Of a DNA stretch of 64,000 nucleotides, positions 12,486 to 35,869 are shown in pieces. Within the stretch, counting starts at the first letter, position 1. Each line of letters begins with the position of its first letter. The translations under genes were made by a program, and so were the position numbers. This DNA is from Candidatus Bathyarchaeota archaeon (GTDB lineage: Archaea > Thermoproteota > Bathyarchaeia > Bathyarchaeales > Bathycorpusculaceae): NCBI GenBank assembly GCA_018396705.1, contig JAGTQZ010000003.1:62001-126000 (forward strand). Reading direction: 5' to 3'. The notes beneath the pieces are model-generated. The model was not told the DNA's origin. It ran no database searches and saw only the letters and a list, made by a program, of their open reading frames with translations.

Positions 12486-12941
12486 ATGAATACAAAGAAG
12501 TATGAAAAGGAACTTCTTCCAAAAAAGACACGTCTTCTCCTTTACATAAGAGACAAAGACTTGATTGAATTATTCAGCGGGTATATCTTCGATACGAAAA
12601 TTAAGTTAACAGATTTGCAGAGAGAACTTGGCTATAATAGTCCAAGCCATCTATACCAAGATCTGATGGATCTATCTCAAAGGGGATATATTGAGTACAA
12701 CCCGACACAAGATAATGTCAAGATAACAGACAAGGGCAAAAAACTTACGGAGCGTTACGCATACATTAGATCCTTATGCTTAATCTTAATAATATTCAGC
12801 TTGGGTTTATTACCAATCCTCCTCTACATACCCAAATGGGTCTGGGTATATTCTGCATTATTAAGCGGGATCAGTTTGAGTTGTGGCGTCTTAATAATTG
12901 TAAATCTTTGGAAGCTAATTAAAGAGAAGATTGTCTTCTAA
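12486..12941 (+). CDS. Winged-helix protein with two C-terminal membrane helices
   Basis: Not matched to a named family. Residues 1-90 look like a winged helix: a recognition helix around SPSHLYQDLMDLSQRGY and a wing ending VKITDKGKKL. Two hydrophobic helices follow at about 98-120 and 123-145. The layout suggests a membrane-tethered regulator or sensor. The ATG at 12486 is preferred over a TTG at 12471. A TATA-like TTATAGTATA about 30 bases upstream would give an almost leaderless transcript. Confidence 0.7.
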   Translation: MNTKKYEKELLPKKTRLLLYIRDKDLIELFSGYIFDTKIKLTDLQRELGYNSPSHLYQDLMDLSQRGYIEYNPTQDNVKITDKGKKLTERYAYIRSLCLILIIFSLGLLPILLYIPKWVWVYSALLSGISLSCGVLIIVNLWKLIKEKIVF

Positions 12942-13025
12942 ATTTTTAAGTAATCTTTCAAAATTTAGACCAATATTTCCCTTTACAAAATTTGAAAATC
13001 AAAAAGAAAGAGGTGAGAAGTAAAA

Positions 13026-13229
13026 ATGCCATTAAACATAAATGTTTTCGCAAAATCGACGCTCTCGATTCTCGCCGTGGTTGTCCTTATAGCATTTTTA
13101 TTAAGTATATATAACAATTCCCAAGAACTGCTAAATACAGCAAAAACACTATTTGCTTGGCTCATCATAGCTGTTGTGGCTGTCACTTTCATAATCAACC
13201 TTCCAAGAATCTTGTCTCGACTAAGCTAA
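13026..13229 (+). CDS. Small two-helix membrane protein
   Basis: Sixty-seven residues with two hydrophobic helices (about 10-28 and 40-60) joined by a short polar loop containing NNSQELLN. A good ribosome binding site, GAGGTGAG, ends about eight bases before the ATG, which supports a real gene. It lies 85 bases after the winged-helix membrane protein on the same strand and may be co-expressed with it. No family recognised. Confidence 0.62.
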   Translation: MPLNINVFAKSTLSILAVVVLIAFLLSIYNNSQELLNTAKTLFAWLIIAVVAVTFIINLPRILSRLS

Positions 13230-13330
13230 TACAAATTATAGCTATGACAGCTTCATGTTTAAGTTCATGGGGCTTTCAGTTTAGCAACCAACGAAAAAAG
13301 GTATTAGCGAATCAAAGCATAAAAACAAAT

Positions 13331-13500
13331 TCTAGAGAGGGTAAGCGTTTATTGGCTTTTGCAATCCAAAAGGATGTTGGAAACCCTAGAGGGGAGGGGC
13401 TAGGGAAAATATGGCTGAAAAAGGCTCCATTTTCCAGCGTTTACCAAAAACTCTAGAGAGGGGTATCAATTTTGTGGTTTGCCACAGTCAACAAAATTGA
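13331..13500. repeat. Cluster of short direct and inverted repeats
   Basis: The stretch between 13230 and 13505 has no convincing gene. It contains TCTAGAGAGGG at 13331 and again at 13452, 121 bases apart, each followed by loosely similar T-rich sequence. CCCTAG/CTAGGG (13384-13389 and 13400-13405) encloses a G-rich loop. A perfect 10-bp inverted repeat, TCAATTTTGT/ACAAAATTGA (13466-13475 and 13491-13500), contains a second overlapping palindrome, TGTGG/CCACA (13473-13486). The last structure lies just past the stop of the leftward gene at 13506 and could end its transcript. Confidence 0.55.
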
Positions 13501-13505
13501 CGCTT

Positions 13506-13733
13506 TTATAGGTGTTTTTCGAAGATTATGGCTGTTTTTTCTGGTTTTTTGAAGCCAAACTTTTCCAAAGTGTCTGTTACTGGCTTGTGGCTGCATGTAA
13601 ACCCATAGATTTTCTCGATGCCTTTTTGGTGGCAGTAAGCCAGCAGAAACCCAGCCATATCTAAAACCGCCTTGTGGCTTCCGTCTATATAGCATGTTTG
13701 AACAGCTCCACATATGCATAGTTTAATTAGCAA
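13506..13733 (-). CDS. Short GNAT-acetyltransferase-like protein or fragment
   Basis: A 75-residue reading frame. Its second half (GIEKIYGFT, HKPVTDTLEKFGFKK) resembles the final strand-helix-strand of GNAT acetyltransferases, where the EK-x-GF motif is common. An N-terminal acetyl-CoA-binding portion is absent, so it is either a remnant or an unrelated small protein. It starts only about 24 bases from the divergent rio2 start, leaving little room for separate promoters. Weakly supported. Confidence 0.4.
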   Translation of the reverse strand: MLIKLCICGAVQTCYIDGSHKAVLDMAGFLLAYCHQKGIEKIYGFTCSHKPVTDTLEKFGFKKPEKTAIIFEKHL

Positions 13734-13757
13734 ACGCGTCTATTTTAGGCATTAGTG

Positions 13758-14675
13758 ATGTCAGCCGAAGCCATCCAAGCCTTCAAAAACCTCGAAAGCG
13801 AAGACTTCCGCATATTGCAGGTCATCGAAGCCGCCATGACAAAACACGAGTACGTGCCAAAAGAGGTCATCGCCAAATACTCCAAATTCAACGAGGAAGA
13901 AGTCACCTTCCGCCTCGAAAAACTACACAAGCTCCGCCTAATACGCCAGACAAAACAGCCCTACTTGGGGTATACGCTGAACTACGCGGGCTACGACTGT
14001 CTGGCGATAAACGCCTTTGTGAAAGCCGGAATCCTAGAAGCCTTCGGCAAACCACTCGGCGTGGGCAAAGAAGCCGACGTCTACGACGCTTTAACGCCGA
14101 TTGGCGAGCGCATAGCCATAAAATTCCACCGCCTAGGAAGAATAAGCTTCCGCCAAACAAGACGCAAACGCGGCTGGACAACAGAAGACATGCACTGGCT
14201 ACTACGCTCAAGAAAAGCTGCAGAAAAAGAATATGAAGCCTTAACACTTGTATACCCGAAAGGCGTGGCTGTTCCAAAACCCATAAGCCAAAACCGCCAC
14301 GCCATAGCCATGAGCGCCATAGAAGGTGCAGAACTCGCCCAACTACGCGAAATCCCAAACCCACAGAAAGTGCTAATGGAAATTCTACACAACATCAGAA
14401 AAGCCTACCAGAAAGCCGGAATAATCCACGCAGACCTAAGCGAATACAACATCATACTAAAACCCGACATGCACATCCTCATAATCGACTGGCCACAGTA
14501 TGTAACCAAAGACCAGCCTAACGCCCAGCAACTCTTGAAACGCGACATAGAAAACATAATCACCTATTTCAAGCGTAAACACCTGTTTGAAACAGACGCG
14601 CAACAAGCCTTCGAGTACGTGACAGGCAAAGGAAGAAAACCGCTACCTTTTAAGAGCATCCAAAACAATGTATAG
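13758..14675 (+). CDS. rio2: RIO-type serine/threonine protein kinase, Rio2
   Basis: Atypical kinase required for small ribosomal subunit maturation. An N-terminal winged helix (about residues 1-85) is the Rio2-specific domain. The kinase core follows: nucleotide loop GVGKEADVYDA (about 98), catalytic HADLSEYNI (about 222) and metal-binding IDWPQ (about 242). The 305-residue length is typical. GTG at 13755 and ATG at 13758 are adjacent candidate starts. The 3' end overlaps the opposing LSm gene by 33 bases. Confidence 0.95.
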   Translation: MSAEAIQAFKNLESEDFRILQVIEAAMTKHEYVPKEVIAKYSKFNEEEVTFRLEKLHKLRLIRQTKQPYLGYTLNYAGYDCLAINAFVKAGILEAFGKPLGVGKEADVYDALTPIGERIAIKFHRLGRISFRQTRRKRGWTTEDMHWLLRSRKAAEKEYEALTLVYPKGVAVPKPISQNRHAIAMSAIEGAELAQLREIPNPQKVLMEILHNIRKAYQKAGIIHADLSEYNIILKPDMHILIIDWPQYVTKDQPNAQQLLKRDIENIITYFKRKHLFETDAQQAFEYVTGKGRKPLPFKSIQNNV

Positions 14676-20154: not shown

Positions 20155-21423
20155 TTAATCAACGTGTATCAATGATAATAATGCAGAACATATTTTGCGT
20201 TCATTAATCTTTTTGAGTTGTTGAATTGTCATTATGAGGTTTGTTCTTTCTCGCTCATAATGTTTAAGCAATTTTTCTACGCAAGTCATTAATCTATGAG
20301 GAGTTATATTTTCAATGCTGATAACATAGTTATGTAGTCCTAATTGTTGAGATATGCCATGCGCCTTGAAATGTTGGTAGGAGATTATAATTGATGGTAT
20401 TCTTGCTAAAGAGGCCATGATCACAGAGTGCATTCGTGTTCCTATGAAAATATGTAACCCGAGTTTTCCCATTATTTTGACTAATGAAGTTGGTGATTCT
20501 TCTTTTACATTCAATAAATATACTTTTTTGGGATATATAGTAGAAAGTTTGCTGTATATGATCTTGCATGGACCTAAATCGTCTTCCCCTCCCCCGATAT
20601 AACTGAATGGTATTAGATAAACCTCAAATCCATCCTTCATTAAGTTGAAGGCGGTTTGTGTAATGCTGTCTATATATCTTTTATATAAGTTAGGCTGATT
20701 AAAGAGCCATTTGCGAACAGTTATTCCAACTCTAGGTTGGCTTTCAAGAACTTCACAGGTGGTTTTTGGCGACTGTAGAAAAAAGGACATATCACATGAG
20801 ACAAACATGTTTGGAGCATTTACATTAAGGTTTTTTCGGACATATAAAGATGAGAGCTCTTCACGATAAGTTACGAGATTCATACGATACAGAATTATGC
20901 GTGCAACAGTGCGGCTAAGAGCATCTTCAAATGGTCCGATGCTATGACCAAGCATCACTGTTTTCTTTTTCCTTAAAAATTTTGCGTAAACTATCGGAAT
21001 CGCATGTATGTAAAAGCCGAAATGAGAGTAAAGGTAATTTCCACCAACTATTATAACTAGGTGAGAATCATCTATACTGCGAAGAGTACATTTGAGTTGA
21101 CTGTCAAACAATTTTAAAAGAGGCATCAACGCTAAACTCAGTATCAAAAAGAGGGGCCCGAATAATCCTTTTAAAGCAACGCGTGATGCTGTACCAAACA
21201 ATACTCGTAGGGGCTGCAATGAATCTGTGATAGATGGCATTGGCAAAACTTTGATGGAATCTCCCAATTCCTTTTTGTGTTTTATAAAGCTATGGTGGTC
21301 AAAAGCCAACATCGTTATTTCTACGTTTGGCACAATCTTCTGAATTAGCTTTATGGTGGCGAGGGCAATAGCGGCGTCGCCTTTGTTATAGTAGGACCAA
21401 CAGCAAGCTATTACTATTTTCAT
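20155..21423 (-). CDS. Polysaccharide pyruvyl transferase family protein
   Basis: About 422 residues. The N-terminus MKIVIACCWSYYNKGDAAI and the later GTRMHSVIMASLARIPSIIISY (about residue 340) are signatures of the CsaB/WcaK family, which adds pyruvate ketals to surface glycans. IVGGNYLYSHFG (about 120) fits the family's first-domain loop. I chose the ATG at 21423 because it matches the family N-terminus and lies one base from the previous stop; a much longer frame to 21627 would overlap that gene. Part of the glycan island. Confidence 0.85.
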   Translation of the reverse strand: MKIVIACCWSYYNKGDAAIALATIKLIQKIVPNVEITMLAFDHHSFIKHKKELGDSIKVLPMPSITDSLQPLRVLFGTASRVALKGLFGPLFLILSLALMPLLKLFDSQLKCTLRSIDDSHLVIIVGGNYLYSHFGFYIHAIPIVYAKFLRKKKTVMLGHSIGPFEDALSRTVARIILYRMNLVTYREELSSLYVRKNLNVNAPNMFVSCDMSFFLQSPKTTCEVLESQPRVGITVRKWLFNQPNLYKRYIDSITQTAFNLMKDGFEVYLIPFSYIGGGEDDLGPCKIIYSKLSTIYPKKVYLLNVKEESPTSLVKIMGKLGLHIFIGTRMHSVIMASLARIPSIIISYQHFKAHGISQQLGLHNYVISIENITPHRLMTCVEKLLKHYERERTNLIMTIQQLKKINERKICSALLSLIHVD

Positions 21424-21424
21424 T

Positions 21425-24400
21425 TTACTGATTAGAAAAATTTTCTTTTGGTTCTTGAGTTTTTCTAACTTTTTCAATGGTGGCAATAAGCACGAGGACG
21501 ATAATTGAGAGGTATAATGAGGTGTGGACCTGTTCAAGTTGAGGATACAATTTGACAAGATCCGAGTAAACCGTGAAGGATCGGAAAGAACCATTATACT
21601 TGAAATCAAAGATGAAAAGATACACATTTGGATAATGAATTGTAAAAGCAGTCTCTCCGTTAAAAATTAATGTACGTCCCCAATGTTCCGCTTTTTTTCT
21701 CCAAAAGCTTTCCTCCAACTGTGTTTCGCCGTGAACCGTTATTCGGGGGTCCTTAACTAAAAGGGTGCTATTGTTTGTGACATAGTATTTTGAGAGAAGT
21801 TTTTCGTTTTCAAAAATATTTAACTCAAATGGTTCATAAAAAGAGATTTTAGCGTAGGTCCCCATTGTGTATGGGGTTATTTCTATATTGGTTGCCTTTA
21901 TTGAGAAGTGAATATTGGAATAGTCTTGGGCTTGTAGTTTGAGTTCAAAACCATTAATGAACATAATTGAGTTCGAGTCTATGTTTATGGAACCTTGTGC
22001 GGTAACTCGTTTAGTGTACATTTCGAAGCGTTGGTTTATGTTGTCTCGTGTCCAATTGAATGAGGGGAGTTCAGTTGTATCTTTTATCCATTTCAAAACC
22101 TCTGGTAAAATCTTGAGACTAGTTTCTTTATTATCTATTAAAGGAAACGCGTTAACGTAGATTAATTTTCCAGCGCCGTAGTTTTCTTGTATAATAAGTG
22201 GGGACACTTTTGTTTCGTTAAGCATGTAGAAAGCGGTGGCGTTATTAGTATTTAGGATGGGAACATTAATTGCGGCTGGTAGCGTTAGTGTTTGTTGTTT
22301 GTAGGCTATTGAATTTGAAGGTACACTGTTGGGTTTGAGAATAATTTCGATATCAGAAAAATAGAAGTCGTAAACTGAATTTGGTTCTCCGTTTATTCCT
22401 ATGCGGATCTTGCTTATCGCTGAAAGATTCATGGAGGTTGAGGCTTCGGTGAAATTATAAAAGTTCAATTTGAACTCTTTCCATTCTCCAGCATATGTAT
22501 ATGGAAGGGTATAGGCTTGATAGTTATTGTTGATGTCGAACAGTACAAAACGTACAGATTGAACGGGTTTGTTACTTTTAAACTTGAAGGCTAACGCTTC
22601 TGCATTTTTTGAATTCCAAGGCTCTTGGAAAATGTAATCGATTCTTAGCCAACCGTTGATATTGGTCTGTCCAGTTACATTCATAGTTGTTTGCTCGTTT
22701 TGCATCGTGGTTTTGATTTGGCCTTCGCCTATACTAATTTTCCATGAATCAATTGGTTCAACAGGTGCAATTTTGTCTTTTCTAATTAAATTCAGCTTTT
22801 CAGCAAAGTTCCCAAGTTTATCTACATTAAAGACGATTAGCGTTGCCCCTTCATCCAGTCTTTTTGTTAGTTTCTGGCTTAACTCATTGTCAAGCGGATC
22901 GTAGGGTAACACTATTATAGGATAATAGAGGTTCGTGAAGGCACTAGGCAGGGCGACATCGTAACTGCTGTTCGTCTGGGCAAATGCGTTTAATATGGAA
23001 GTGTAAGGTGAGCCTGTTGGGGTGAGAAGTAAAACTTCCGATTCTGGTGTTGGAGGAACACCGTAGGGAAGCTCGTAGATTAATGTTTCATTAATTTTGT
23101 ACACTGGATCAACAGCCTGAAGTACATTAGTGCATAGAAAAGAATCCCTATTCGACTTCAAAATGTAGTCATCAAATTCTGGAACGTACAAGAGATAATT
23201 TGCTTTTGTAAACCATGTACCAAAATAATAAGTTGCAGGATTAGATGTTAAGGCAATTGTACTTCGCATAGGGTCATAAACTCGCTTAATCCCTAAGCGG
23301 TCAAGAACGTCGGCTGATGGGGCGGTTATGCTTACAAACGTCGCAGATTGATTCATGAAGGGAGTATTTTCTCCAAGTGAAAGTGTTGCAATGCCCAAAT
23401 CTTTTGTAACCGCGCGTCTGGGTTGGTTAGCCCAATAATCGACAGTGAAGGCTGTTGACATTGTTCCAGCAACGATAACTAAAGCTAAGAGAATAGCCGT
23501 TAAGAACTTTAGAGACAGCCCACGTTTTTCCATCTCGGCTTGACGAAGCCGGTCTCTAATAGAACTAAGCAAGTATAAAGCGAACATTGTCGCAATTATG
23601 GCAACAACTCCGTGCAAAAAATATCTCAATATGCGTATCTCCCAGTAATCTACAGAAACAAGGTATACTTTGGTAATAGTTATGCTTTTTCCGAAAACAA
23701 AAAGTGCACCCGCTAAGATTATGAAGGTCATAAAGTGTTTCGACATGTCTACAAGAAAGCCACACATGTTATTTTTAAGCAATAGTGCAAGAACCACGAA
23801 AATTCCCAATACACCCAACCTCATAGGGTAAGTATACCAAGGAACAAAACCAATGTCTGTGAAAATGCTTTGCAAGTTCCATAGAGTTTGTTCTTCTTGA
23901 ACCCAAAGATAAAAAGATAGCATATATAGGAAAAGAATCAACATGGAAATACTAATGTGAACTGTTCGATCATGTTTGATATATGCAATGAGTTTTTTGA
24001 AAAAAGTGAATATTTTTTGTGACCCAAGCATTAACAACGTAGTCGCGATTAGATAGGTCAAAGGCAACAAGGATTCCCAAAGTCCGACAGTAAATAAGCC
24101 GGCTTTTGGCGACAAACGTATCACGATTAGTGTGGTAAATAAGCTGAGGATCAGGGCTAAGTAAACCAAAAATTTCCTAGATTGATTAATAGATCGACAA
24201 AAAAGAAGAATAACACCAAACATAAATACGAAAATTAAGGCCTCAGAAACATGCAATGCCCACGCTGTAAGAAAGGTCAATAAAGTTAACGCAAAGACAA
24301 CGCATCTTTGTTTAATCGTACTGAATAAAAGGCATAACAACATAAAAAACGCGGTAAAACTAACCCAAGCTGGATTATTTCCACATATCCATAAATTTGA

Positions 24401-25465
24401 AAAAAGTGTGTCATTGGCTGTAATAGATGCTGTTCGGACCAAGGCATCAGTCCAGCTTTCAAATTGCATTCGGTATAATGCATAGATCCAACCAAAGCCA
24501 GAAAAGAGGGAAAAAAACACGGTAGCGATGGCGGGCATTGCATGAATTTTTTCTCCAAAAATTTTTCTTGCCATACAGTAAAACGCTAAAATGGGCATAA
24601 CGTTCAGTAGATTGAATACCGAAGCAGAATTGACTAATGGAAAGCCCGAGAGGGAAAAGACGTAAGCAAGACTTACATGAAACCAGTTTAGCGGAATTCT
24701 TACTACTTCTAATCCATATCGTATTATGGAAATTGCTGTTCCTTGATGTCGCCATACGTCACCGCCGAGGTATCCATAATCTTTTAAAAATGCTAGAGCT
24801 GCTACAAAAAAAGCAATTAAAGTAATTAGTAATAGGAGGTCTATGCGAACTTTTCCGTCCCTCCGCTTTATTTCTACATTTTTCTTCAAAAGAATGTCGG
24901 AGACAAAGATGCATATTAGAAGAAGGAAGGAAATTGACAAGTAGAATACTGTAGAAATCTTTCCGAGAAACAATAATGAAATCAAACTCACAAACGGCGT
25001 GTAGAAATAGCTTAGAAGAAACGAAAAGACAAACGCATCTAAACTACGTATCGAATAACCTACGTCGATAAGTCGAAGAATAAAGTACCCTGGAAGAAAG
25101 AAAATGACTCCTATTGACGCAAGTAAAAGTATGTAGTTTTGAATTGGAATGGCACCCCACTCTTGGAAAAATATTAAAGAACGAGGCACTAAGCCTAACA
25201 TATGGGCAGATAAAAGAAGAATTAATAGAACAGCATACAATATAGCAAGCAGATTGTATGTACTGATTTTATATAAAAGAGACATTTCCACACACACTGA
25301 TGGAGGTTCGCCTCGAAGCGTGAAACGTGTGATAGCTACCGATAGAACACTAAGTATGAAAGCGAACGCTAAGCCAAATGCAGTCCTTGAAACATACACC
25401 AGCACAGAAAACGTTGTGATAAATGCAAGTATCTGTGCGAATACCTCAATCTTTCCTTTGAACAT
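21425..25465 (-). CDS. Very large multi-pass membrane protein, GT-C-like with extracellular domains
   Basis: 1346 residues. The first ~690 contain many hydrophobic helices, with a lumenal loop reading YGYLGGDVWRHQG (about residue 233) of the kind that binds lipid-linked sugar in GT-C glycosyltransferases. The WWDYG motif of oligosaccharyltransferases is not seen. The remainder is mostly extracytoplasmic. A Rossmann-like GATase/ThuA-like segment (VLLLTPTGSPYTSILNAF, then IIVLPYDPLDNELSQ and GATLIVFNV) appears interrupted by a beta-sandwich resembling a carbohydrate-binding module, then resumes (YGAGKLIYVNAFPLI). One membrane helix lies near the C-terminus. Sits among glycosyltransferases; the enzymatic role is inferred. 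Confidence 0.8.
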   Translation of the reverse strand: MFKGKIEVFAQILAFITTFSVLVYVSRTAFGLAFAFILSVLSVAITRFTLRGEPPSVCVEMSLLYKISTYNLLAILYAVLLILLLSAHMLGLVPRSLIFFQEWGAIPIQNYILLLASIGVIFFLPGYFILRLIDVGYSIRSLDAFVFSFLLSYFYTPFVSLISLLFLGKISTVFYLSISFLLLICIFVSDILLKKNVEIKRRDGKVRIDLLLLITLIAFFVAALAFLKDYGYLGGDVWRHQGTAISIIRYGLEVVRIPLNWFHVSLAYVFSLSGFPLVNSASVFNLLNVMPILAFYCMARKIFGEKIHAMPAIATVFFSLFSGFGWIYALYRMQFESWTDALVRTASITANDTLFSNLWICGNNPAWVSFTAFFMLLCLLFSTIKQRCVVFALTLLTFLTAWALHVSEALIFVFMFGVILLFCRSINQSRKFLVYLALILSLFTTLIVIRLSPKAGLFTVGLWESLLPLTYLIATTLLMLGSQKIFTFFKKLIAYIKHDRTVHISISMLILFLYMLSFYLWVQEEQTLWNLQSIFTDIGFVPWYTYPMRLGVLGIFVVLALLLKNNMCGFLVDMSKHFMTFIILAGALFVFGKSITITKVYLVSVDYWEIRILRYFLHGVVAIIATMFALYLLSSIRDRLRQAEMEKRGLSLKFLTAILLALVIVAGTMSTAFTVDYWANQPRRAVTKDLGIATLSLGENTPFMNQSATFVSITAPSADVLDRLGIKRVYDPMRSTIALTSNPATYYFGTWFTKANYLLYVPEFDDYILKSNRDSFLCTNVLQAVDPVYKINETLIYELPYGVPPTPESEVLLLTPTGSPYTSILNAFAQTNSSYDVALPSAFTNLYYPIIVLPYDPLDNELSQKLTKRLDEGATLIVFNVDKLGNFAEKLNLIRKDKIAPVEPIDSWKISIGEGQIKTTMQNEQTTMNVTGQTNINGWLRIDYIFQEPWNSKNAEALAFKFKSNKPVQSVRFVLFDINNNYQAYTLPYTYAGEWKEFKLNFYNFTEASTSMNLSAISKIRIGINGEPNSVYDFYFSDIEIILKPNSVPSNSIAYKQQTLTLPAAINVPILNTNNATAFYMLNETKVSPLIIQENYGAGKLIYVNAFPLIDNKETSLKILPEVLKWIKDTTELPSFNWTRDNINQRFEMYTKRVTAQGSINIDSNSIMFINGFELKLQAQDYSNIHFSIKATNIEITPYTMGTYAKISFYEPFELNIFENEKLLSKYYVTNNSTLLVKDPRITVHGETQLEESFWRKKAEHWGRTLIFNGETAFTIHYPNVYLFIFDFKYNGSFRSFTVYSDLVKLYPQLEQVHTSLYLSIIVLVLIATIEKVRKTQEPKENFSNQ

Positions 25466-25474
25466 ATCCTCACA

Positions 25475-26737
25475 TCAAGCTAGCGCTTTCTCATACAGCT
25501 GGATTATTTTAGGACCTAAAAGAGTTATGTCGAATCTACGCACCCATTCTAGATTAAAAACTTTAACTTGAGACTTAAATTTTTCATTGTTTAATATAAT
25601 AGATATTTTGGTTGCAAGGTCGTCAGGGGAGTTTGGGTCAGCCAAATAACCCCCCCTCTTATCGACAATAAGCTCAGGAATTCCGCCCAACCTTGTGGCT
25701 ACCACAGGAAGCCCAAGCGCCATTGCTTCAAGTATAGCCGTTGGACAAGCATCAGGATACCTTGCTGGATGGACGAAAACATCACTTTGCGCCATTATTG
25801 CAAGTTGAATTTTTCTTGGAACAAAACCAGTGAAGATAATATTTCCAATCGGTTCCGCAAGGTCTTCTAGCTGTCTTCTTTGCGGGCCTTCCCCACCAAC
25901 CACAAGGTAAATATCATCCCTAGCACTTTTGCGAAGTTTTTTAAAGGCTTTTATCAAAAAGTCAACACCCTTATTGAACGATAGGTTGCCAAAGTACGTT
26001 ATAATCCTAGCACTAGAGGGAATGTTCAAATAATCCCTTAAATCAAATTTTGTTGAGTGCTTAAGCGCGGACGTTATTTCCTCAAGATCTATGAAATTGT
26101 ATATTGTAACTAAATTGCCCACATTTAGGACATTTTTAATGTAACTTTTTACATAATCACTCACACATATTACATACTTAACGCTATTCAAACTTTCTTC
26201 CATTAACCTGTAGTAGCAGTAATAGTAAGGTATCATAACTGGTAGAACGCACACATGTTCAGGTTTTCCGCTTACGTCACAGATCGCACAGTTTACCACA
26301 GACTGTTTTTTGCATGGTCTTGACAGTTGCAAGACGCAGGCCGGGAATATGCCATGGACGGATGTAATAATTGGGCTTTTACATTTAGTAAACCTCAAAA
26401 AAAGTTGATGTGTTCCATGGTAGTGTACAATGTCATATTTGTCGGCGACTTCGTTAAAATATTTTACAATACTGCGCGAGAACAGAAGATATTTTGTTGT
26501 GTTATAAAGAGGAAGGCTAGTTGCCATCGGAAGAATTCTTAAAACTTTAATCTTGTGTACTCCTTCTAGATATTTATCTAATTGAGAAGTTTGACAAATA
26601 TATTTAGATGAACGTGTAACCACGACAACGTCATGGGATAGCTTACTAAGGTAACATGCTAAGGTATATGTATGCCGCTCCACACCGCCCAGCGATGGAA
26701 GAAAATTATCTGTAAGTATAAGGATTTTCATTGCCAT
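25475..26737 (-). CDS. Glycosyltransferase family 4 (GT-B fold)
   Basis: A 420-residue retaining GT-B enzyme. The N-terminus ILTDNFLPSLGGVERHTYTLA is the classic GT4 opening loop. The C-terminal donor domain has VVGGEGPQRRQLE, FVHPARYPDACPTAILEAMALGLPVVATRLGGIPELI and the E-x7-E pair. A cysteine-rich insertion (CKKQSVVNCAICD and nearby cysteines, about residues 140-165) is unusual and may bind metal. Likely adds a sugar to the surface glycan. Ten bases upstream of the large membrane protein gene. Confidence 0.93.
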   Translation of the reverse strand: MAMKILILTDNFLPSLGGVERHTYTLACYLSKLSHDVVVVTRSSKYICQTSQLDKYLEGVHKIKVLRILPMATSLPLYNTTKYLLFSRSIVKYFNEVADKYDIVHYHGTHQLFLRFTKCKSPIITSVHGIFPACVLQLSRPCKKQSVVNCAICDVSGKPEHVCVLPVMIPYYYCYYRLMEESLNSVKYVICVSDYVKSYIKNVLNVGNLVTIYNFIDLEEITSALKHSTKFDLRDYLNIPSSARIITYFGNLSFNKGVDFLIKAFKKLRKSARDDIYLVVGGEGPQRRQLEDLAEPIGNIIFTGFVPRKIQLAIMAQSDVFVHPARYPDACPTAILEAMALGLPVVATRLGGIPELIVDKRGGYLADPNSPDDLATKISIILNNEKFKSQVKVFNLEWVRRFDITLLGPKIIQLYEKALA

Positions 26738-26823
26738 TTAATTTATGCTTGTTCTAATTGTTGGAGGATTTTTGCCATGTTTGTATTGTTTTCTCGTAGC
26801 TGAAGTTTTCTTTTCACTTGCAT

Positions 26824-27636
26824 CTATAATGGAGTTTCATGAAACATTGCTCTTAAGAGAGGATGTAACAGTAATCTATATGATTGTAGGATTCCATAAA
26901 ATCTCGCGTAAAATAGCATACTATTTCTATATTCATAGTAAAGTGTCTTCAGCATGGAATTTTTTTCACATCCGCCACAAGCTATATGCCGGTGCCAAAG
27001 TACAGATTTAGGTTGGAAGAACAATTTGTACCCTTTGCTTCTTATTCTATAATAAAAGTCGACTTCTTCTCTTGCATGTGTCCCTAAATAAAGTTTTTCA
27101 TCAAACCCCCCAACGATTTTAAAAATTGTTTTTGGAATCAACGAACAAGCATGGAGAAATGGTACTTCAATAATTTTTCCAGGATCGTATCCAAAGTTGT
27201 GGTATGTCCAGCCAGTAACGTGACCTATTCTAACCACATCATTTAACCACTTATATCCTGCATCTATAAGACGAGGTCCGACTGCTCCAACTTCATGTTC
27301 TTTTTTGAGCTTAAAGTATGTGTCAATAAGGATTTTGAGCGCGTCTTTGTTTTGGAAAATTATGTCATCCTCCCCGAAAAAAATCAAATCACCTCTTGAC
27401 AAAGATACGCCGAGGTTGCGGGTTGCGGGCAATCCCTTATGGTTTGCAGAACGATACAAACGAACTCTTTCATCATCCGTATACTTGGCTGCTATTTGAA
27501 AAGTATTGTCTTTAGAGGCATCGTCTATTATTATCAATTCCCAGTTTGTATAGGATTGTTTAATTAATGACTTTATAAACGTCTCTAACATGAAACTTCT
27601 ATTGTAAGTTGGCAGCACAATCGACAAGGTTACCAT
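26824..27636 (-). CDS. Glycosyltransferase family 2
   Basis: A 270-residue GT-A enzyme. The N-terminus LSIVLPTYNRSFMLETFI, the UDP-binding LIIIDDASKDNT (about residue 35) and a variant DXD, GEDDIIF (about 92), are clear. KLYLGTHAREEVDFYYRIRSKGYK corresponds to the ED catalytic region. Soluble or peripherally membrane-bound. Part of the leftward glycan gene array. Confidence 0.92.
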   Translation of the reverse strand: MVTLSIVLPTYNRSFMLETFIKSLIKQSYTNWELIIIDDASKDNTFQIAAKYTDDERVRLYRSANHKGLPATRNLGVSLSRGDLIFFGEDDIIFQNKDALKILIDTYFKLKKEHEVGAVGPRLIDAGYKWLNDVVRIGHVTGWTYHNFGYDPGKIIEVPFLHACSLIPKTIFKIVGGFDEKLYLGTHAREEVDFYYRIRSKGYKLFFQPKSVLWHRHIACGGCEKNSMLKTLYYEYRNSMLFYARFYGILQSYRLLLHPLLRAMFHETPL

Positions 27637-27664
27637 TGGGACAAGATCGCATCGCTTCTCATTT

Positions 27665-28801
27665 TTAACTAATGTTAGCTTTTAAAATATGATCATACAA
27701 TCGCAGTAACCTCTTTTCCATTAGGTTCCAGTTGTATTTTTGTTCGAATGCTCGCCTTCCATTTTCGCCAAGTTTCCTTCTAAGGGATGGATCATTTTTT
27801 AAACGGATAATTGCATTTCGCACTTCTTCCACATCATAATCCACGATTAAACCGCAATGAGCCTCGGCCACAACATCCCTACATACATTAGTTATTACTG
27901 GAACCCCTAGCATCATAGCCTCAAATAACTTGTTTGGACTTGCAACACGATTTATTGGAATGGAAGGATCATACAAAACGGGGATTACATCAGCTATTCT
28001 CTCTAAATTTATGACCTCCGTTGCTTCTAACAAACCGACATAGCGAACATTTGAGTTTTTAAGCAAATGAATTAATGTATAATCAAAAACCCGTCCGGCT
28101 AAGATTAGACGCACATCCCTTAAATCCTTAATAGCTTCACCGATTAAAATTAGCCCTCTATCATGCGCTATAGCCCCAGCATAGACCAGAGTCAAAACTC
28201 CAGGTTCATCAACTTCTAAAATCGGTTTATCTTCAGTTTTTTCCAATCCCTCAAAGTCAGGACAGTTCATTATAACCTCTGTATATTTAGGCAGGTATCC
28301 ACCAAAGGAAGACTTACGCTCATCTGAAACCACTATCAACGCATCTGAATTTTTAGCCAAAATATCTTCAATTTTATTCACAGCAAGGTAGATAAGACGA
28401 TACTTGGGTGGAATGAAAGCCATAGCAAATCTATCAAAATTATCAAAAACAAGTTTGACTGAAAATAATGTTTTGAAAAAATAACCTGGCACTAATGCGT
28501 CAAGATCGCATGCATGAATAATTTTTGGTTTATAAGTGAGCAAATTCTTAAAAGTCCACAACCAAAACAGCGGATAATATAATAAGATATGGAACTTTGA
28601 ATAAGGAGCTTTCATTTTAAACCGTTTTACAGGCGCAAGTTTCTCCAGAATCTCAAAAGAACTATGTGTTCCTTCACGATCCCATCCTAAAACGAGTAGC
28701 CTATACTTTCTAGATAGAGAACGAATGATCTTCAAAACCCTCATTTCGTATAAAACGGGATTAGACCTAATTAACACAACTTCAAAATAATTTTCCAGCA
28801 T
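27665..28801 (-). CDS. Glycosyltransferase family 4-like (GT-B fold)
   Basis: A 378-residue GT-B protein. The acceptor domain includes IIHACDLDALVPGYF (about residue 90). The donor domain has LTLVYAGAIAHDRGL (about 205), LILAGRVFD and SPNKLFEAMMLGVPVITNV (about 290), the nucleotide-sugar binding stretch. The N-terminal glycine-rich loop of typical GT4 members is weak. Next to a GT2 gene 28 bases downstream. Confidence 0.88.
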   Translation of the reverse strand: MLENYFEVVLIRSNPVLYEMRVLKIIRSLSRKYRLLVLGWDREGTHSSFEILEKLAPVKRFKMKAPYSKFHILLYYPLFWLWTFKNLLTYKPKIIHACDLDALVPGYFFKTLFSVKLVFDNFDRFAMAFIPPKYRLIYLAVNKIEDILAKNSDALIVVSDERKSSFGGYLPKYTEVIMNCPDFEGLEKTEDKPILEVDEPGVLTLVYAGAIAHDRGLILIGEAIKDLRDVRLILAGRVFDYTLIHLLKNSNVRYVGLLEATEVINLERIADVIPVLYDPSIPINRVASPNKLFEAMMLGVPVITNVCRDVVAEAHCGLIVDYDVEEVRNAIIRLKNDPSLRRKLGENGRRAFEQKYNWNLMEKRLLRLYDHILKANIS

Positions 28802-28896
28802 CGCACACTTCGCCTCGTAAGGTTGCTATTCAAAGCTAAACCTAAAAACTCAGATAGTTTTTCTTGCAGCATAAGTGGCAATCCAGCACAAATGCT

Positions 28897-29542
28897 TTAA
28901 GCCCGATTTACAAAGCAAAACATCAAACGATGCAACAGCTTTAAAAATCTGGTACCTCTAAAGAAGGATACCCACTTTCCCAAAATAGGGAATATGTGAA
29001 TAAATAAAAAGAAATAACCCTCGTTAACGATATTGAACCGCGCTTTGCCCAACATTTCTTTTAAAACGATCGGGACAAAGGGTCTTTCGGAACGAACATG
29101 AATATCTGTTGGAAAAAACTTACGACCGATCGCTGCAATAGGGTTAAGGGCTCCAGACTCATAAAAGATCACGCTTCCACCTTCACAAAGAACTCGTTGC
29201 ATTTCTAAAATTCCTTTGCTAGGATCAGCTAGATGATGCAGAGTTGATTTACAGACAATAACATTAAAACTAGAACCTTTAAATGGAAGCCTTTGCGCAT
29301 CACCAAGTACTATGCAAGCAATTCTTTTGTCAATTTTCTGCAACTCCTTGCGCGAAATGTTAATCCCTACAATCTCTTTGATGTTTTTGCTGGATTTATA
29401 CACCCAAAACACTTCGCCGCCTGCACCTAATATGGCAAACGCCCGTGGAAAGTTTCGTTAGGAGATGCTCAAAGTGTGAGTGAGGGCCAAGCTCAAGCAA
29501 ATGATTCATAGCCTGGATGTGCCATTGCTCTCCCCATTTCAT
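28897..29542 (-). CDS. Class I SAM-dependent methyltransferase, interrupted by a one-base frameshift
   Basis: The intact downstream frame (28897-29412) has motif II-III of a Rossmann methyltransferase: IVGINISRKEL, DAQRLPFKGSSFNVIVCKSTLHHL and an ALNPIA helix. Reading upstream on the same strand, the ATG at 29542 opens MKWGEQWHIQAMNHLLELG. After one extra A in a three-A run near 29453-29455, the frame continues FPRAFAILGAGGEVFWVYKS. GAGGE is the SAM-binding glycine loop, so the complete gene is about 645 bases with a single indel. It is either a sequencing error or a recent mutation. Likely methylates a glycan sugar or lipid; the HH-L pattern fits UbiE-like enzymes. Confidence 0.78.
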
Positions 29543-29580
29543 GCGTTTATCCCTTACTCACCTTTGTATGAAGTACATTT

Positions 29581-30636
29581 TCACTTTGAGACCCAATGGT
29601 AGAATATTTCACACGGTGCATCTTTTCTCTTCCATTTTCCCTTTTTAATACCATAAATCATTCCGATAAAATAACTCGAATGCTCTATGACAAATAGAAG
29701 CGGAACCAAAAATAAAAAACGAACTTCCTTCATTTTTATAACGGCTTGCAACCCTTTAAGCAATATAGTGATTAAGTAAATAGCTAAAAGCACCAGCGCA
29801 ATGAAAGGGAAAAACCACGCAACAAAAGGAAAAAGAAGAACTCCTACAAAGGGAACAATTGCCCCTTTATTCGCATAACTCCTGTTCGTAAGTATAGACC
29901 TCATTCGCCCCACTCCATACAAGAAAAACTGTTTAGCAAATTGCTTAATTGTGCTCCTGCGGTGGTGCTCTACACAAATCGATGGAACAAGTAGAAGCTT
30001 GTAACCCAATGCTCTCACCTTATAACTGAGATTTGTATCTTCACAAAGTTCGAACTCTTCATCAAAACCCCCAGTCTCTAAAAGAACCTTCCGCCAAAAA
30101 GCGCTATTTATACAAGCCAAAGCATTTACAAACTTGGGCTTTGAGGGTTTATGGAGACTAGCAGAACCCAAACTTCCCAAATAACTCGAAAAAACCAAAT
30201 CAACTGCCTTACCAAGAATAGAATCATCGGAGGGAGAAACATTTATACCCCCTACTCCTCCTAAAGTCGAAGATTGCTTAAGATTGCTAACGAGCAGAGA
30301 GAGCCAATCTCGGGATGCTTTACAGTCAGAATCTATAAATACTATAATTTCACCTCGCGCTAACTTAATGCCAAAATTTCTGGCTTGAGAGCGATTTCCT
30401 CCCTTAATAACTATCACTTCAAATTTACCCGAAAAAGTTGTCTCCTTCAAACTCGCCAGACATTCACTGATATACGAATCTTTTTCATCTCTTATCGGAA
30501 TGACAATGCTCACCTCAACCGGCATTTCCAACTTGATCCACATCACGTCGCAAGAATGAAGATCATGTAAACGCCAAGAAGCTTTCTTCGGGTATACTCC
30601 CTTTTGTTTTTTAGCAAGTTGAACTAACTCAAACAC
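29581..30636 (-). CDS. Membrane-anchored glycosyltransferase family 2
   Basis: A 351-residue protein. The GT-A domain starts near residue 40: VSIVIPIRDEKD, VIVIKGGNRSQARNFGIKLA and DXD in IIVFIDSDCKA. ELCEDTNLSYKVRALGYK is the catalytic acidic motif and ends in HHRRS. Two or three hydrophobic helices near residues 245-330 anchor the C-terminus. The GTG start at 30636 overlaps wecB by 13 bases, but an internal ATG at 30543 or 30525 is possible because family similarity begins there. Confidence 0.88.
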   Translation of the reverse strand: MFELVQLAKKQKGVYPKKASWRLHDLHSCDVMWIKLEMPVEVSIVIPIRDEKDSYISECLASLKETTFSGKFEVIVIKGGNRSQARNFGIKLARGEIIVFIDSDCKASRDWLSLLVSNLKQSSTLGGVGGINVSPSDDSILGKAVDLVFSSYLGSLGSASLHKPSKPKFVNALACINSAFWRKVLLETGGFDEEFELCEDTNLSYKVRALGYKLLLVPSICVEHHRRSTIKQFAKQFFLYGVGRMRSILTNRSYANKGAIVPFVGVLLFPFVAWFFPFIALVLLAIYLITILLKGLQAVIKMKEVRFLFLVPLLFVIEHSSYFIGMIYGIKKGKWKRKDAPCEIFYHWVSK

Positions 30637-31703
30637 ACTCTCAATGCTTCAATTATCCTTGCTCCAGCCTTCCCATCGCCGAAAGGATTTGGCCAGTTTC
30701 TCTCTTTATTGAGCATAAAATCTACTTTTTTAATGATTTCGTGTGGGTTTGTTCCGGCTAAAATGTTTGAGCCGACTTCAAGGGTTTCTGGTCTTTCTGT
30801 ATTGTCTCTCATGGTGACGCATGGTACGCCTAAGATACAGGCTTCTTCTTGTACTCCGCCTGAATCGGTGAGCACAAGCCTAGCGTTGCTTTCAAGCTGT
30901 AGGAAACTTAAGTAATCTAAAGGCTCAATGAGCCTAATGCTGTGAGGCTTCAGTCCAAAAGCTTCTAACCGTTTTCTAGATCTCGGATGGATGGGATAAA
31001 TCAGCTCAGCGCCAAACTCTCTATGAACCATTTCCAGCCCTTTCAAAATGTTGCGAAACCTCTTTTCATCGTCAACGTTTTCCTGCCTATGAACGGTAAC
31101 CACAAAATATTCATCCTCGTCAAGGCCCAAATCATTTAAAATGTTCACCGTTTTTCTGGCTATCTCCAAATTCTGGAAAACCGCATCGACGATCGTGTTG
31201 CCCGTGACAAATATTTTCTCTTCCGCTACGCCTTCTCCAATTAGTATCCGCCTCGACTTTTCAGTTGGAGCGAACAAGTAATCGGAGCAGTGATCAGTCA
31301 AAACCCGGTTTATCTCTTCGGGCATTCTCCGGTCATAACTGCGTAAGCCAGCCTCCACATGTCCAACCTTAATTCCCAGCTTAACAGCCGCTAAAGCGCC
31401 AGCCAAAACCGTGTTGGTGTCCCCCTCAACCAAAACCACGTCAGGCCATTCTTGCCGCAAAACTTTTTCTATTCCTATAAGCATTTTGCCAGTCTGCTCG
31501 GCGTGGCTTCCTGAGCCAACATCCAAATTGTATTTTGCCTCTGGAAGCTCCAGCTGTTCGAAGAAAATTCGATCCATATTGTAGGAGTAATGCTGTCCAG
31601 TATGCAAGATAAAGTATTCTAAGCCTAAACGTTCACATTCGCGGATTATCGGAGACATCTTAATAATTTCTGGGCGAGTTCCAAGCACGATGGAAATCTT
31701 CAT
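30624..31703 (-). CDS. wecB: UDP-N-acetylglucosamine 2-epimerase (non-hydrolysing)
   Basis: A 359-residue GT-B-fold epimerase converting UDP-GlcNAc to UDP-ManNAc. The signature GTRPEIIKMSPI opens the protein. HTGQHYSYNMD (about residue 36), VEGDTNTVLAGAL (about 95), GHVEAGLRSYDRRMPEEINR (about 115) and TDSGGVQEEA (about 280) cover the active site. ManNAc would normally be oxidised by WecC for surface glycans, but the WecC copy in this window is broken. Overlaps the upstream TIGR04076-like gene by four bases. Confidence 0.95.
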   Translation of the reverse strand: MKISIVLGTRPEIIKMSPIIRECERLGLEYFILHTGQHYSYNMDRIFFEQLELPEAKYNLDVGSGSHAEQTGKMLIGIEKVLRQEWPDVVLVEGDTNTVLAGALAAVKLGIKVGHVEAGLRSYDRRMPEEINRVLTDHCSDYLFAPTEKSRRILIGEGVAEEKIFVTGNTIVDAVFQNLEIARKTVNILNDLGLDEDEYFVVTVHRQENVDDEKRFRNILKGLEMVHREFGAELIYPIHPRSRKRLEAFGLKPHSIRLIEPLDYLSFLQLESNARLVLTDSGGVQEEACILGVPCVTMRDNTERPETLEVGSNILAGTNPHEIIKKVDFMLNKERNWPNPFGDGKAGARIIEALRVCLS

Positions 31704-32012
31704 TCGCCAACCCCTTTCTTCTCTACCCTTCTACACTTGAAAATCACTGTTCCGCCGTCAGTATAGGGCTTTCCAGGATCAACACATTGCATATACGCAA
31801 CCATTTTTTCCTTTGGCGTGGTCAGACCGAGCTTAACAGGGTCGGCGCCCTCTTCTAATGCAACAACATAATGTAGTAACGTTGATAACGCATGAACACA
31901 AACAGCATCCGGTTTCTTCCAAAACAATTTTTGGACCGTCTATAATGATCCGGTCTCCAACCTTGTGAACTGGACATTCGCCTTTAATCTCGCAAACCTC
32001 AATCTCCAACAC
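31700..32012 (-). CDS. TIGR04076-like small protein, interrupted by a one-base frameshift
   Basis: The intact C-terminal frame (31700-31927) reads CVHALSTLLHYVVALEEG and ends with QCVDPGKPYTDGGTVIF, the pattern I associate with the TIGR04076 family of small cysteine-containing proteins. Upstream, a GTG at 32012 preceded by GAGGCGAG starts VLEIEVCEIKGECPVHKVGD. That frame would join the C-terminal frame if one G in CCGG at about 31909-31912 were absent. The full protein would then be about 104 residues. Function unknown. Confidence 0.7.
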
Positions 32013-32033
32013 ATTTCTCGCCTCGCTTCTGTC

Positions 32034-32972
32034 CTACTTCCTGTTGATTTTCTGCGTTAATCTGGATATCGCATACAGCGTTACAGCCGTGAACAGGGCG
32101 AATAAACCGATAAATGTGAAGGCAATTGAAGCCAGGGCAAGATTTGTTACTATATGCCGCTCTAAAGCGTAAATCTGAAGCATCCACACTCCGAAAAATG
32201 TGCCTAAAAATAGTGAAATAATTCCAGGAACACCCAAGAAGAGTAGTGGTCTCTCCTCAACTACCAAGCGAATAAGCGACATAACCACGTCAACGCCGTG
32301 ACTAACAGGGTTACGTGTACTTTTATCTAAATCCTTACTATAACTGCATGACACAGGAACTTCAACAATCTTTAAACCCTTTTTATCAGCATCAACTAGA
32401 ATTTCAACACTCACGCCCATACCGTTCTCCGTTAAAGATAGTTTTTTAATGGCTTCGTGACTATAGGCTCTGAACCCGCTTTGGGCATCTTTTAAAGGAC
32501 GCCTCGTGCCATTATTAACCATTTTTGTGATAAACTTAATGCCAGCACGCCTATACCACGGCATGGTATATGCTCGACACTCATCGACAAGCCTTGAACC
32601 AATAACCACATCAGCAGAACCCTCAACAATTGGCTTCACAACGTTTGGAATCTCGCATGGATCATGCTGTCCATCACCATCTAAAGTTACCAAAACATCA
32701 GCGTTAAGCTCTCTGGCTCTTCTGAAAAGGCTTTGAATTGCAGCTCCATAACCCAAATTGCGATCATGCCTAATCACTTCCGCCCCTAGCTTCTCCGCAA
32801 TTTCACCAGTCATATCAGTAGAACCATCATCGCAAACAACAACTTTATCAGCAAACCTTAAAGCCTTCAAAACAACCTTAGCAATAGTCTTCTCCTCATT
32901 AAACGCTGGAATACCAACAACAACAAAAGGCCGGTCTATGTATGCCTTCACAACCCCAACATCAATATTCAT
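32034..32972 (-). CDS. Dolichol-phosphate mannosyltransferase-like GT2 with C-terminal membrane helices
   Basis: About 312 residues. VVVGIPAFNEEKTIAKVV, VVCDDGSTDMTGEIA and VTLDGDGQHDPCEI (DXD, about residue 105) are the DPM1/AglJ-type catalytic domain that transfers a sugar to dolichyl phosphate. Two hydrophobic helices near residues 230-250 and 270-295 place it at the membrane, where lipid-linked glycans begin. I chose the ATG at 32972 because GAGG lies eight bases before it; a TTG at 32990 is the alternative. Confidence 0.92.
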   Translation of the reverse strand: MNIDVGVVKAYIDRPFVVVGIPAFNEEKTIAKVVLKALRFADKVVVCDDGSTDMTGEIAEKLGAEVIRHDRNLGYGAAIQSLFRRARELNADVLVTLDGDGQHDPCEIPNVVKPIVEGSADVVIGSRLVDECRAYTMPWYRRAGIKFITKMVNNGTRRPLKDAQSGFRAYSHEAIKKLSLTENGMGVSVEILVDADKKGLKIVEVPVSCSYSKDLDKSTRNPVSHGVDVVMSLIRLVVEERPLLFLGVPGIISLFLGTFFGVWMLQIYALERHIVTNLALASIAFTFIGLFALFTAVTLYAISRLTQKINRK

Positions 32973-33090
32973 ATCTGAAGCCTCAACCAACAGAGAACCA
33001 CCAGACCAACGTTTTTAATGTAATTTTGTTAAAGAATTTGTATCGTTGTTTTTCCGAAAATTTTGAATAACACGAATTGTAAAAGCTCTA

Positions 33091-34626
33091 TTAGAAGACA
33101 TGTATATACACGGATATTCTGCAAAAATCCTTTAAGCGTATAAAATCATCTGGAACGGTTATGCCATACCATCCAATAGGCTCGTTCCACCAGACAAAAT
33201 ATACGCGGCTGAAGCCAAGTTCATAAGCTTTATTCACAGCCATATTCAAATCGTTTTCAAAATGAATCAGCGTATGCGACCTGCTAAGGTAAAGCTGTCC
33301 CCAAAAAAGGAAGGCATGATGTATCAATAAACAATCGTTAGCGCCTAAATTCTTGTCTAGCCAAACCATAGCATCTGCAACACTATCTACATCCTGATAT
33401 GGAACCGTCGGAGCAAAGGAAAAATACTTGTTAACAGGATTAAACGAGAAAAGTCCCACATTGACGGTGCTCATCAAAACCGGGGTAGCCAAATAAACGC
33501 ATCCAAGCAAAACCGTTATACAACTCATGCCTAAAACCTTCCTAGTTGCAAAGCGCAAACCAGTGCACCATTGCCGACATTTTTTCATTCCGTTAACTGC
33601 ATAAAACATGAAAGGATAAACCAGCATAAACATCCATCGATGCCAATACTGCAAAGCACAAAAAGGAAAAACTAAGCAGCCGAACGCCCCGACCGAAAGC
33701 AGAAAAGTCCAAAGGCTTAAAATCCTATTTTTAAAGAAACCCTTCCAAACAAGAAAAATGTAAGACAAATACAGCAAGCAAAACAGCATAGCCACACTTA
33801 AAGTAATATCAAAGTAAGAAGCATACATGTCAACTGAGGTTCTCACACTCAAATAATTGGTTAAGAAGAAAAATTTCCCAACACTTGCATAAACAGCATC
33901 TCCGGCGTCAATCACGTTAGTTTCAATCCTGTAACGTATTGGGAAAAACCTCAAATAAAGGCCGGCGAGAAAAACTACAAGTGTGGGTAGAAAAGCAAAA
34001 AACAACCTTCTACTTTTGGCCAAATCCTCACCTTTAAATAGGGACCATAAAATCGATCCTGAAACTAAAAAAGTCAAAGTTACAGCTGCATACTCATGGG
34101 CAAAAACTGAAAACAGAGAAAACAGCACAAAACATAGAAAGCTCCTTCTCTTATCAAGGCTTTTAATAAAAGATAGAGTGAATAATAAAAAGCCCAAGCC
34201 AAGCAGGTTTCTAAGCAAATCCCAGCTAATTCTCAATGATGCAAGTTGAACAGTGAAAAATAGTCCAGTTAGTAAACTGGTTCTGACATCCCAGTCTAGC
34301 ATCTTTCTTGCAAGCCAAAATATTCCAGCAACATTTAATCCAAAAAGCAATGGGGCCAAAACCTTCAAAAGCATAAAGGGATCTCCGCCTACGACCTTGT
34401 AAAGTGAAACTGAAATAGCTGGAAAAAGCCATGAAGTCGTGAAGAAAGCTGTCCAATGGGGCCAAATCACGCCGCTTTTCATAAAAGCCGCATAATAAAC
34501 TGTGTCAAAACCTATGGGATAAGGAAAGGCTAAAAGCTCAGGAACCATTCTAACAGCAAACCCAACCGAAAAGCACGTTAACATGCCGCTGACTTCTGTG
34601 AATTGAAATTTAACCGGCAAACGCAC
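33091..34626 (-). CDS. Multi-pass membrane protein, probable GT-C glycosyltransferase
   Basis: 511 residues with about 11-12 hydrophobic helices. The first extracytoplasmic loop carries YPIGFDTVYYAAF (about residue 37), the position where GT-C enzymes such as PMT/ArnT relatives keep an acidic residue. The region HEYAAVTLTF (about 175) and a C-terminal soluble tail after the last helix also fit. No exact family named. Overlaps the upstream GT2 gene by 17 bases, so they are co-translated. GTG start. Confidence 0.78.
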   Translation of the reverse strand: MRLPVKFQFTEVSGMLTCFSVGFAVRMVPELLAFPYPIGFDTVYYAAFMKSGVIWPHWTAFFTTSWLFPAISVSLYKVVGGDPFMLLKVLAPLLFGLNVAGIFWLARKMLDWDVRTSLLTGLFFTVQLASLRISWDLLRNLLGLGFLLFTLSFIKSLDKRRSFLCFVLFSLFSVFAHEYAAVTLTFLVSGSILWSLFKGEDLAKSRRLFFAFLPTLVVFLAGLYLRFFPIRYRIETNVIDAGDAVYASVGKFFFLTNYLSVRTSVDMYASYFDITLSVAMLFCLLYLSYIFLVWKGFFKNRILSLWTFLLSVGAFGCLVFPFCALQYWHRWMFMLVYPFMFYAVNGMKKCRQWCTGLRFATRKVLGMSCITVLLGCVYLATPVLMSTVNVGLFSFNPVNKYFSFAPTVPYQDVDSVADAMVWLDKNLGANDCLLIHHAFLFWGQLYLSRSHTLIHFENDLNMAVNKAYELGFSRVYFVWWNEPIGWYGITVPDDFIRLKDFCRISVYIHVF

Positions 34627-35869
34627 CTGTAACTATCCCTTTTTTCTCCGTCTTGACCCAAACCTGAGGTTTACGCAAAAGCATAAGTATAAGCGCATAT
34701 AATGCGATGAATGATTGTAGACTCCAGTAAAAGTATATGAATGGTAGCCAAAGAAGATTAGTCAATTTTCTAGGCTTTGAAATGTAGGCTAACGCCAAAC
34801 CGCAAATCATAAGCGTAAGACTTGTTCCAACGGCGGAAATATACATCAGCAACTGAAGTAAGGCATCAAGGTTGATGGCGGCAAAAGATATATAGAATGC
34901 TAAAAGGTAACAAATCAAAGAAGCTATAAGTACAAATGGACCGAGAAGGGTGAGTTCGGCATCGAGGCTTTTTTTAGTAGGCTTGGCTATCAGCCTTCCA
35001 TATTTGAAGGCTACTTGCATTGTCCCCCTGAACCATCTTGTTCTCTGTTTGAAAAGTTGCCCCACTTGGGATGGTGTTTCCTGCCAAGAACACACGTCAG
35101 AGGCATACCTGATCTGGTAACTATTTTCAACAAGCCTTGCCGATAACTCCATATCCTCGGACAAAGTTTCCTCGTTAAAACCGCCCAGCTTCGCTAAAAC
35201 CTCCCGTCTTATAAACTGGCAGGTTCCCTTCAGGTGGACAAACAAGCCTAAAACGTCCTTTCCCCTTAAATAAGCTTCACACCATACAACCTCCTCAATG
35301 GAAACAAGCTTTGTCAACATGTTCTCATCAGCATTTAAACTGCAAAGCTTACCTTGCACAGCTGCCACTGAAGGATCATTAAAATACGCAACAGCCTTTT
35401 TCAGCACATCACGTTCAGGGACATTATCCGCATCAAAAACTGCCACAATTTCCCCTTTTACATACTTAAAGGCAAAATTTAAAGCGGACGGCTTTCCGTT
35501 CGACATAGGCTTATGGAGGAGTTTCACCCGTTCAGGATGTCGCCTCGCGTATTCTTCACATATTTCAACGGTTTTGTCGGTAGAGCCATCCTCAACAACT
35601 AAGATTTCTATTTTATCAGTCGGATAATCTAGCTTCAATAAGGCCTTAAGAAGCCTGCCCACGACCTTCTCCTCATCCTTCACAGGAACAACTATCGAAA
35701 CCTTTGGCAATTGCTCCTCAGCGAGCAACGTCTTCTCCTGCTTTCTCTTGCTTGAAAGGCGCAGATGCTTTACACCAACAGCTATGACTGGTATCTGGTA
35801 AAAAACCCAAACGTAGACGATTATTAGAACAACCACGACTACGATATAAACGGGATTCAACCTACACAC
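34610..35869 (-). CDS. Processive glycosyltransferase family 2 (NodC/PgaC/cellulose synthase-like)
   Basis: A 419-residue polymerising GT2 with an N-terminal helix (about 8-28). KVSIVVPVKDEEKVVGRLL, VEDGSTDKT and AVFDADNVP (DXD) give the donor site; LSEDMELSARLV supplies the catalytic ED; and QRTRWFRG is the Q-x-x-RW motif of processive synthases. Three to four C-terminal helices (about 300-400) form the channel. It probably elongates a beta-linked polysaccharide. It is the first gene of the leftward island. Confidence 0.93.
   Translation of the reverse strand: MCRLNPVYIVVVVVLIIVYVWVFYQIPVIAVGVKHLRLSSKRKQEKTLLAEEQLPKVSIVVPVKDEEKVVGRLLKALLKLDYPTDKIEILVVEDGSTDKTVEICEEYARRHPERVKLLHKPMSNGKPSALNFAFKYVKGEIVAVFDADNVPERDVLKKAVAYFNDPSVAAVQGKLCSLNADENMLTKLVSIEEVVWCEAYLRGKDVLGLFVHLKGTCQFIRREVLAKLGGFNEETLSEDMELSARLVENSYQIRYASDVCSWQETPSQVGQLFKQRTRWFRGTMQVAFKYGRLIAKPTKKSLDAELTLLGPFVLIASLICYLLAFYISFAAINLDALLQLLMYISAVGTSLTLMICGLALAYISKPRKLTNLLWLPFIYFYWSLQSFIALYALILMLLRKPQVWVKTEKKGIVTGAFAG

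Follow-up and report, generated by a model that had tools for sequence, protein, structure and literature searches.

Within the 64,000-nucleotide stretch of DNA analysed here (the window), we identify a gene for a 1346-residue membrane protein that we read, with somewhat better than even confidence, as an outward-acting glycosyltransferase of the GT-C type using lipid-linked donors, in which a split and catalytically dead GATase-like domain would act as the platform for an acceptor-reading module. The open reading frame is read from the minus strand, a point on which the first-pass annotation was silent; its product begins with about 18 membrane helices (residues 1–673), continues in a large extracellular portion and ends with a C-terminal helix. 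Searched directly against Pfam, NCBIfam and PDB sequences, this protein gave no significant match, and the layout below combines comparisons among homologs with predicted topology and folds.

21425..25465, minus strand: whole gene, 1346-residue membrane protein plus stop codon
24866..25465, minus strand: N-terminal membrane helices with FLPGY motif (residues 1–200)
23447..24838, minus strand: GT-C-like module of 12 predicted helices (residues 210–673), from topology and conservation
24626..24781, minus strand: predicted first extracellular loop of the GT-C-like module (residues 229–280), with D236, the candidate catalytic Asp, and H240
23633..23641, minus strand: ExR in an extracellular loop (residues 609–611), R611 being a candidate lipid-phosphate ligand
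23051..23446, minus strand: membrane-proximal extracellular domain (residues 674–805), conserved among homologs
22775..23020, minus strand: GATase-like domain part 1 (residues 816–897), ending past an elbow (LIVFNVDKLGNFAEKL) without Cys
22334..22759, minus strand: jelly-roll insert (residues 903–1044), CBM-like by fold match (CBM11 best), with CBM_11 at the same site in homologs
22076..22285, minus strand: GATase-like domain part 2 (residues 1061–1130), including the YGAGKLIYVNAFPL strand (residues 1096–1109)
21557..22075, minus strand: beta-rich C-terminal extracellular domain (residues 1131–1303), present in most full-length homologs; low-confidence model
21458..21556, minus strand: C-terminal membrane helix (residues 1304–1336)

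At the 3′ end of the gene, the longest reading of a pyruvyl-transferase open reading frame (20155–21627, minus strand) overlaps it by about 200 bases; the true start of that frame is probably near 21420.

A split GATase-like domain and its jelly-roll insert

The splitting of the GATase-like domain is best seen with a profile built from four homologs in which the domain is uninterrupted (L035, L036, L038, L065), the 1346-residue protein being excluded. This insert-free profile matches the protein with a whole-protein E-value of 1.8e-8 (17-protein set) in two collinear pieces, profile positions 53–99 at residues 851–897 and 136–172 at residues 1078–1114, and the gap between them coincides with the position that the first-pass annotation had given for an insert. 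As the profile was made without the protein itself, two collinear matches place the split beyond chance. The DUF4350 (GldG-like) family also matches the GATase-like region in five homologs (E-values from 1.7e-5 to 8.8e-3, none reaching the Pfam cut-off), with no DUF4350 match in the 1346-residue protein itself in Pfam; together with the two-piece profile match, this bears out the split GATase-like fold proposed from the sequence at first reading. Against PDB sequences the GATase profile found nothing significant, the best match being a beta-galactosidase (E 0.35).

The term ‘amidotransferase-like’ holds for this fold and fails for the enzyme. The elbow has a consensus of approximately LIVxNxxGxGxFA, and the nucleophile Cys is absent in all 23 of the 23 homologs compared, which rules out an active class I glutamine amidotransferase and argues that the domain is a non-catalytic platform.

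The insert between the two halves is well supported as a predicted beta sandwich of the carbohydrate-binding type. Both of our structure models (membrane part and C-terminal part) were built from four sequences and have mean pLDDT values below 40; from them we use only the insert region, residues 903–1044. This region has the highest confidence in the C-terminal model (local pLDDT 47–69) and shows about nine strands, the last of them FYFSDIEIIL (residues 1034–1043). A Foldseek search with this region returned a CBM11 structure (6r31) first, with E 1.4e-7, followed by CBM30, CBM61, CBM4 and others, so that plain immunoglobulin-like repeats can be set aside. At the level of sequence the insert of this protein has no significant match, and a search with an insert profile found none either (best a GH50 agarase, E 0.14); its likeness to CBM11 is thus one of fold alone. 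In two homologs this insertion site has a CBM_11 match that falls short of the Pfam cut-off (L066, E 2.4e-4; L028, E 1.4e-3), and other homologs carry lectin domains at other sites, which, with the fold matches to CBM11, CBM30 and CBM4, upholds the carbohydrate-binding type of fold that had been suggested for the insert.

The membrane core and its gene neighbourhood

Family-averaged hydropathy predicts 18 helices between residues 8 and 673. Twelve of these follow residue 210, within the GT-C range of 11–13 (by hydropathy only), and six more lie upstream; a 52-residue first outer loop after helix 7 is predicted to be followed by eleven helices. The catalytic-loop helix is usually the first in GT-C proteins, but in this protein six others come before it. 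Within the first outer loop D236 is invariant (16 of 16 homologs) and H240 nearly so (14 of 16), while R611, in a late predicted outer loop, is again invariant in 16 of 16. P542 and P547, both in predicted outer loops, are likewise invariant; E609, also in a predicted outer loop, E408 and H405 are nearly invariant, and the other conserved polar residues of the membrane part are mostly on the predicted outer side. The basic loops 189–209, 477–503 and 631–654 are predicted to face inside. A conserved acidic residue in the first outer loop, together with further conserved outer-loop residues, is the pattern described for GT-C enzymes (PMC6801728), and the topology and invariant outer-loop residues of our protein agree with it, although agreement is not proof.

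No Pfam or NCBIfam family model matches the membrane part, and neither collection links the protein to any known GT-C family; one of 15 members has a weak DUF1616 match in its N-terminal part (Pfam, E 1.3e-3), and hhalign against an archaeal STT3 profile gave a probability of 5%, with no detectable similarity. The membrane-part model (mean pLDDT 37) has STT3A and ArnT as its top two PDB matches, which at E 0.28 and 0.32 are non-significant and are taken here as hints.

The gene belongs to a glycan island, two further members of which bear on its function.

20155..35869, minus strand: glycan island, all assigned genes in the same direction
32034..32990, minus strand: AglJ-like (polyprenyl-phosphate sugar synthase-like) GT2, below the NCBIfam cut-off
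33091..34626, minus strand: second multi-helix protein, 511 residues, with an early GFDTVYYA motif

The island also encodes a CsaB-like pyruvyl transferase, two GT4 enzymes, GT2s, a methyltransferase and a wecB-type epimerase, and the 1346-residue gene starts 9 bases past the end of one of the GT4 genes (25475–26737). The AglJ-like synthase, homologs of which occur in the fetched flanks of six homolog loci (L030, L033, L034, L035, L078, L080), is consistent with the use of lipid-linked donors. The 511-residue protein, which has no Pfam or NCBIfam match and is conserved at homolog locus L034 (E 8e-153), may give the island a second GT-C-like enzyme. Nearly all homolog loci with readable flanks have GT4 or GT2 neighbours, often with wecB-type or SDR enzymes; the flanks of L079 and L082 had no such match to the query set used. 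The GC content is 0.36–0.39 in the genes at 20155–30636, as against about 0.46–0.50 for most genes at 1–14000. Just past the glycan genes lies a tRNA-Arg gene (37058–37134).

Taken together, topology, the invariant Asp and gene context agree on a GT-C identity for the membrane core, which we regard as plausible but unproven. Of the GT-C core suggested in the first-pass annotation, then, these three lines of evidence speak in favour, while the failure to match an STT3 profile and the low confidence of the model speak against.

Homologs and their shifting lectin modules

About 20 distant homologs (19–26% identity) are spread across the archaeal phylum: counting the source genome itself, a homolog is present in 16 of 163 genomes of the order, 18 of 257 of the class and 16 of the 398 sampled from the phylum. 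One same-family homolog carries the name Candidatus Bathyarchaeota, and one of the homologs comes from a Thaumarchaeota MAG; a profile search of contigs seeded with four homologs found only three loci. The protein is absent from the three same-genus genomes searched, which marks the island as accessory, and possibly as acquired. In other archaeal glycan islands, where a comparison had been proposed from the outset, we find homologs that combine the GATase-like domain with lectin modules.

These modules occupy different places from homolog to homolog. A Laminin_G_3 domain follows the GATase-like domain in L031 and a 3keto-disac_hyd domain precedes it in L038, both over the cut-off. By our own reading of the sequences, with no profile match, six homologs (L016, L037, L040, L078, L080, L082) appear to have a ConA-like block after profile position ~57, and two (L029, L033) appear to have two tandem jelly rolls ahead of the domain; in L035, L036, L065 and L077 the domain is insert-free. 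Mapped onto a tree built from approximately 830 N-terminal residues, the states of the insert site need at least nine changes, where the minimum would be four; the tree has long branches and its fine placement, including that of the window protein, is unsure. We propose, tentatively and at somewhat less than even confidence, that the GATase-like domain, itself without activity, is a socket that has gained, lost or swapped unrelated lectin modules (CBM11-like, LamG and 3-keto-disaccharide-hydrolase-like) at several loops, retuning acceptor recognition as the surface glycan of each genome changes.

Two homolog loci show oddities of their own. In L080 (7406–7796) a perfect 84-bp tandem repeat of 4.7 copies, likely a recent expansion or an assembly artefact, lies in frame within the GATase-like region (28-residue unit). 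The contig of L066 is labelled Clostridiales bacterium, while its homolog groups firmly with the archaeal ones and sits in a glycan island; mis-binning or transfer is possible.

Proposed function and related systems

In the mechanism that we favour, the enzyme would use, at the outer face, a sugar carried on polyprenyl phosphate or polyprenyl diphosphate and add it to a glycan or glycoprotein under assembly by the surrounding island. D236 and R611, in the first and a late outer loop respectively, would form the putative active site; the GATase-like domain would serve as a platform of the GldG/DUF4350/GIFT type without catalytic activity, in which the CBM-like insert would read the acceptor glycan.

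Three other functions deserve consideration. A polymerase or ligase resembling Wzy or WaaL, using diphospholipid substrates to make the island glycan while the lectin module keeps hold of the chain as it grows, is unlikely: it would suit a multi-helix core with a large outer domain in an island with cytoplasmic glycosyltransferases, and no other polymerase or ligase is recognised among the scanned window genes, but the first long outer loop, with its invariant Asp and 11 helices after it, fits GT-C better, and the 511-residue protein could itself be the polymerase. Still less probable is a glycan sensor, flippase or scaffold of the surface-glycan machinery that has no enzymatic activity and would dock by means of its lectin modules; a very divergent core, a non-catalytic GATase-like domain and varied binding modules are what one would expect of it, yet D236 and R611 (and nearly E609, E408 and H405) are kept in this freely varying core in the manner of an active site.

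The third possibility is a single-chain functional counterpart of eukaryotic STT3 plus OST48, in which a GT-C transferase equipped with a GIFT/GATase-like docking domain would pass complete lipid-linked glycans on to protein. For the GIFT domain of Wbp1/OST48, binding of sugar or of lipid-linked oligosaccharide has been suggested, and OST48/Wbp1 with STT3 likewise places a GATase-like domain beside a GT-C enzyme (here putative) on the outer or lumenal side (PMC7226087), although as separate subunits rather than one chain; STT3A is also the top, non-significant match of the membrane model. Against this, DDOST and STT3 profiles had no match in the 1346-residue protein or 16 homologs (Pfam scan), the hhalign comparison was negative, and a separate STT3/AglB is encoded on another contig of the same genome. 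We consider such a counterpart improbable, and a role as the genome's N-oligosaccharyltransferase is ruled out by that second gene. With archaeal STT3/AglB the protein has its general layout in common, in which a soluble extracellular part comes after the helices, but no detectable profile similarity.

The GT-C-type reading has its closest parallels in EmbA/B/C, AftD and the GT136 enzyme ORF12, which likewise are multi-helix proteins with an acidic residue in an outer loop, extracytoplasmic domains of the CBM type and a surface-glycan gene context, and in which the CBMs bind the acceptor glycan (PMC11127046). Our protein differs in having about six extra N-terminal helices and no sequence relationship that we could find, and the CBMs of those enzymes are not reported to be nested in a GATase-like domain (PMC11127046). 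For the insert itself the best fold match is CBM family 11 (PDB 6r31, 1v0a). DUF4350, which Makarova et al. relate to GldG and to the middle domain of beta-galactosidase, and the arCOG01314/GldG-like proteins similarly present an extracellular GATase/flavodoxin-like domain on a membrane-anchored archaeal protein, but with a single helix and a proposed role in a secretion system (PMC5898192), in contrast to the multi-helix core, lectin-split domain and glycan-island setting found here. Among the open-access papers searched, none describes a CBM-interrupted GATase-like domain on a core of this kind whose alternative sites hold different lectin modules. The new architecture that had been suggested must accordingly be narrowed: CBM-bearing GT-C enzymes have been described before (Emb, AftD, GT136; PMC11127046), and only the split GATase platform with its lectin insert is new.

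The family of the 1346-residue protein provides a recognisable marker in glycan islands. To our knowledge, next to nothing is known of the surface glycans that uncultured archaea make, and most of their outer-face glycosyltransferases lack annotation. The family also offers a testable idea, namely that acceptor choice evolves through the exchange of lectin modules in one fixed platform domain, and the joining of a GIFT/GldG-type domain to a putative GT-C enzyme in one chain bears on why the eukaryotic oligosaccharyltransferase has such a domain.
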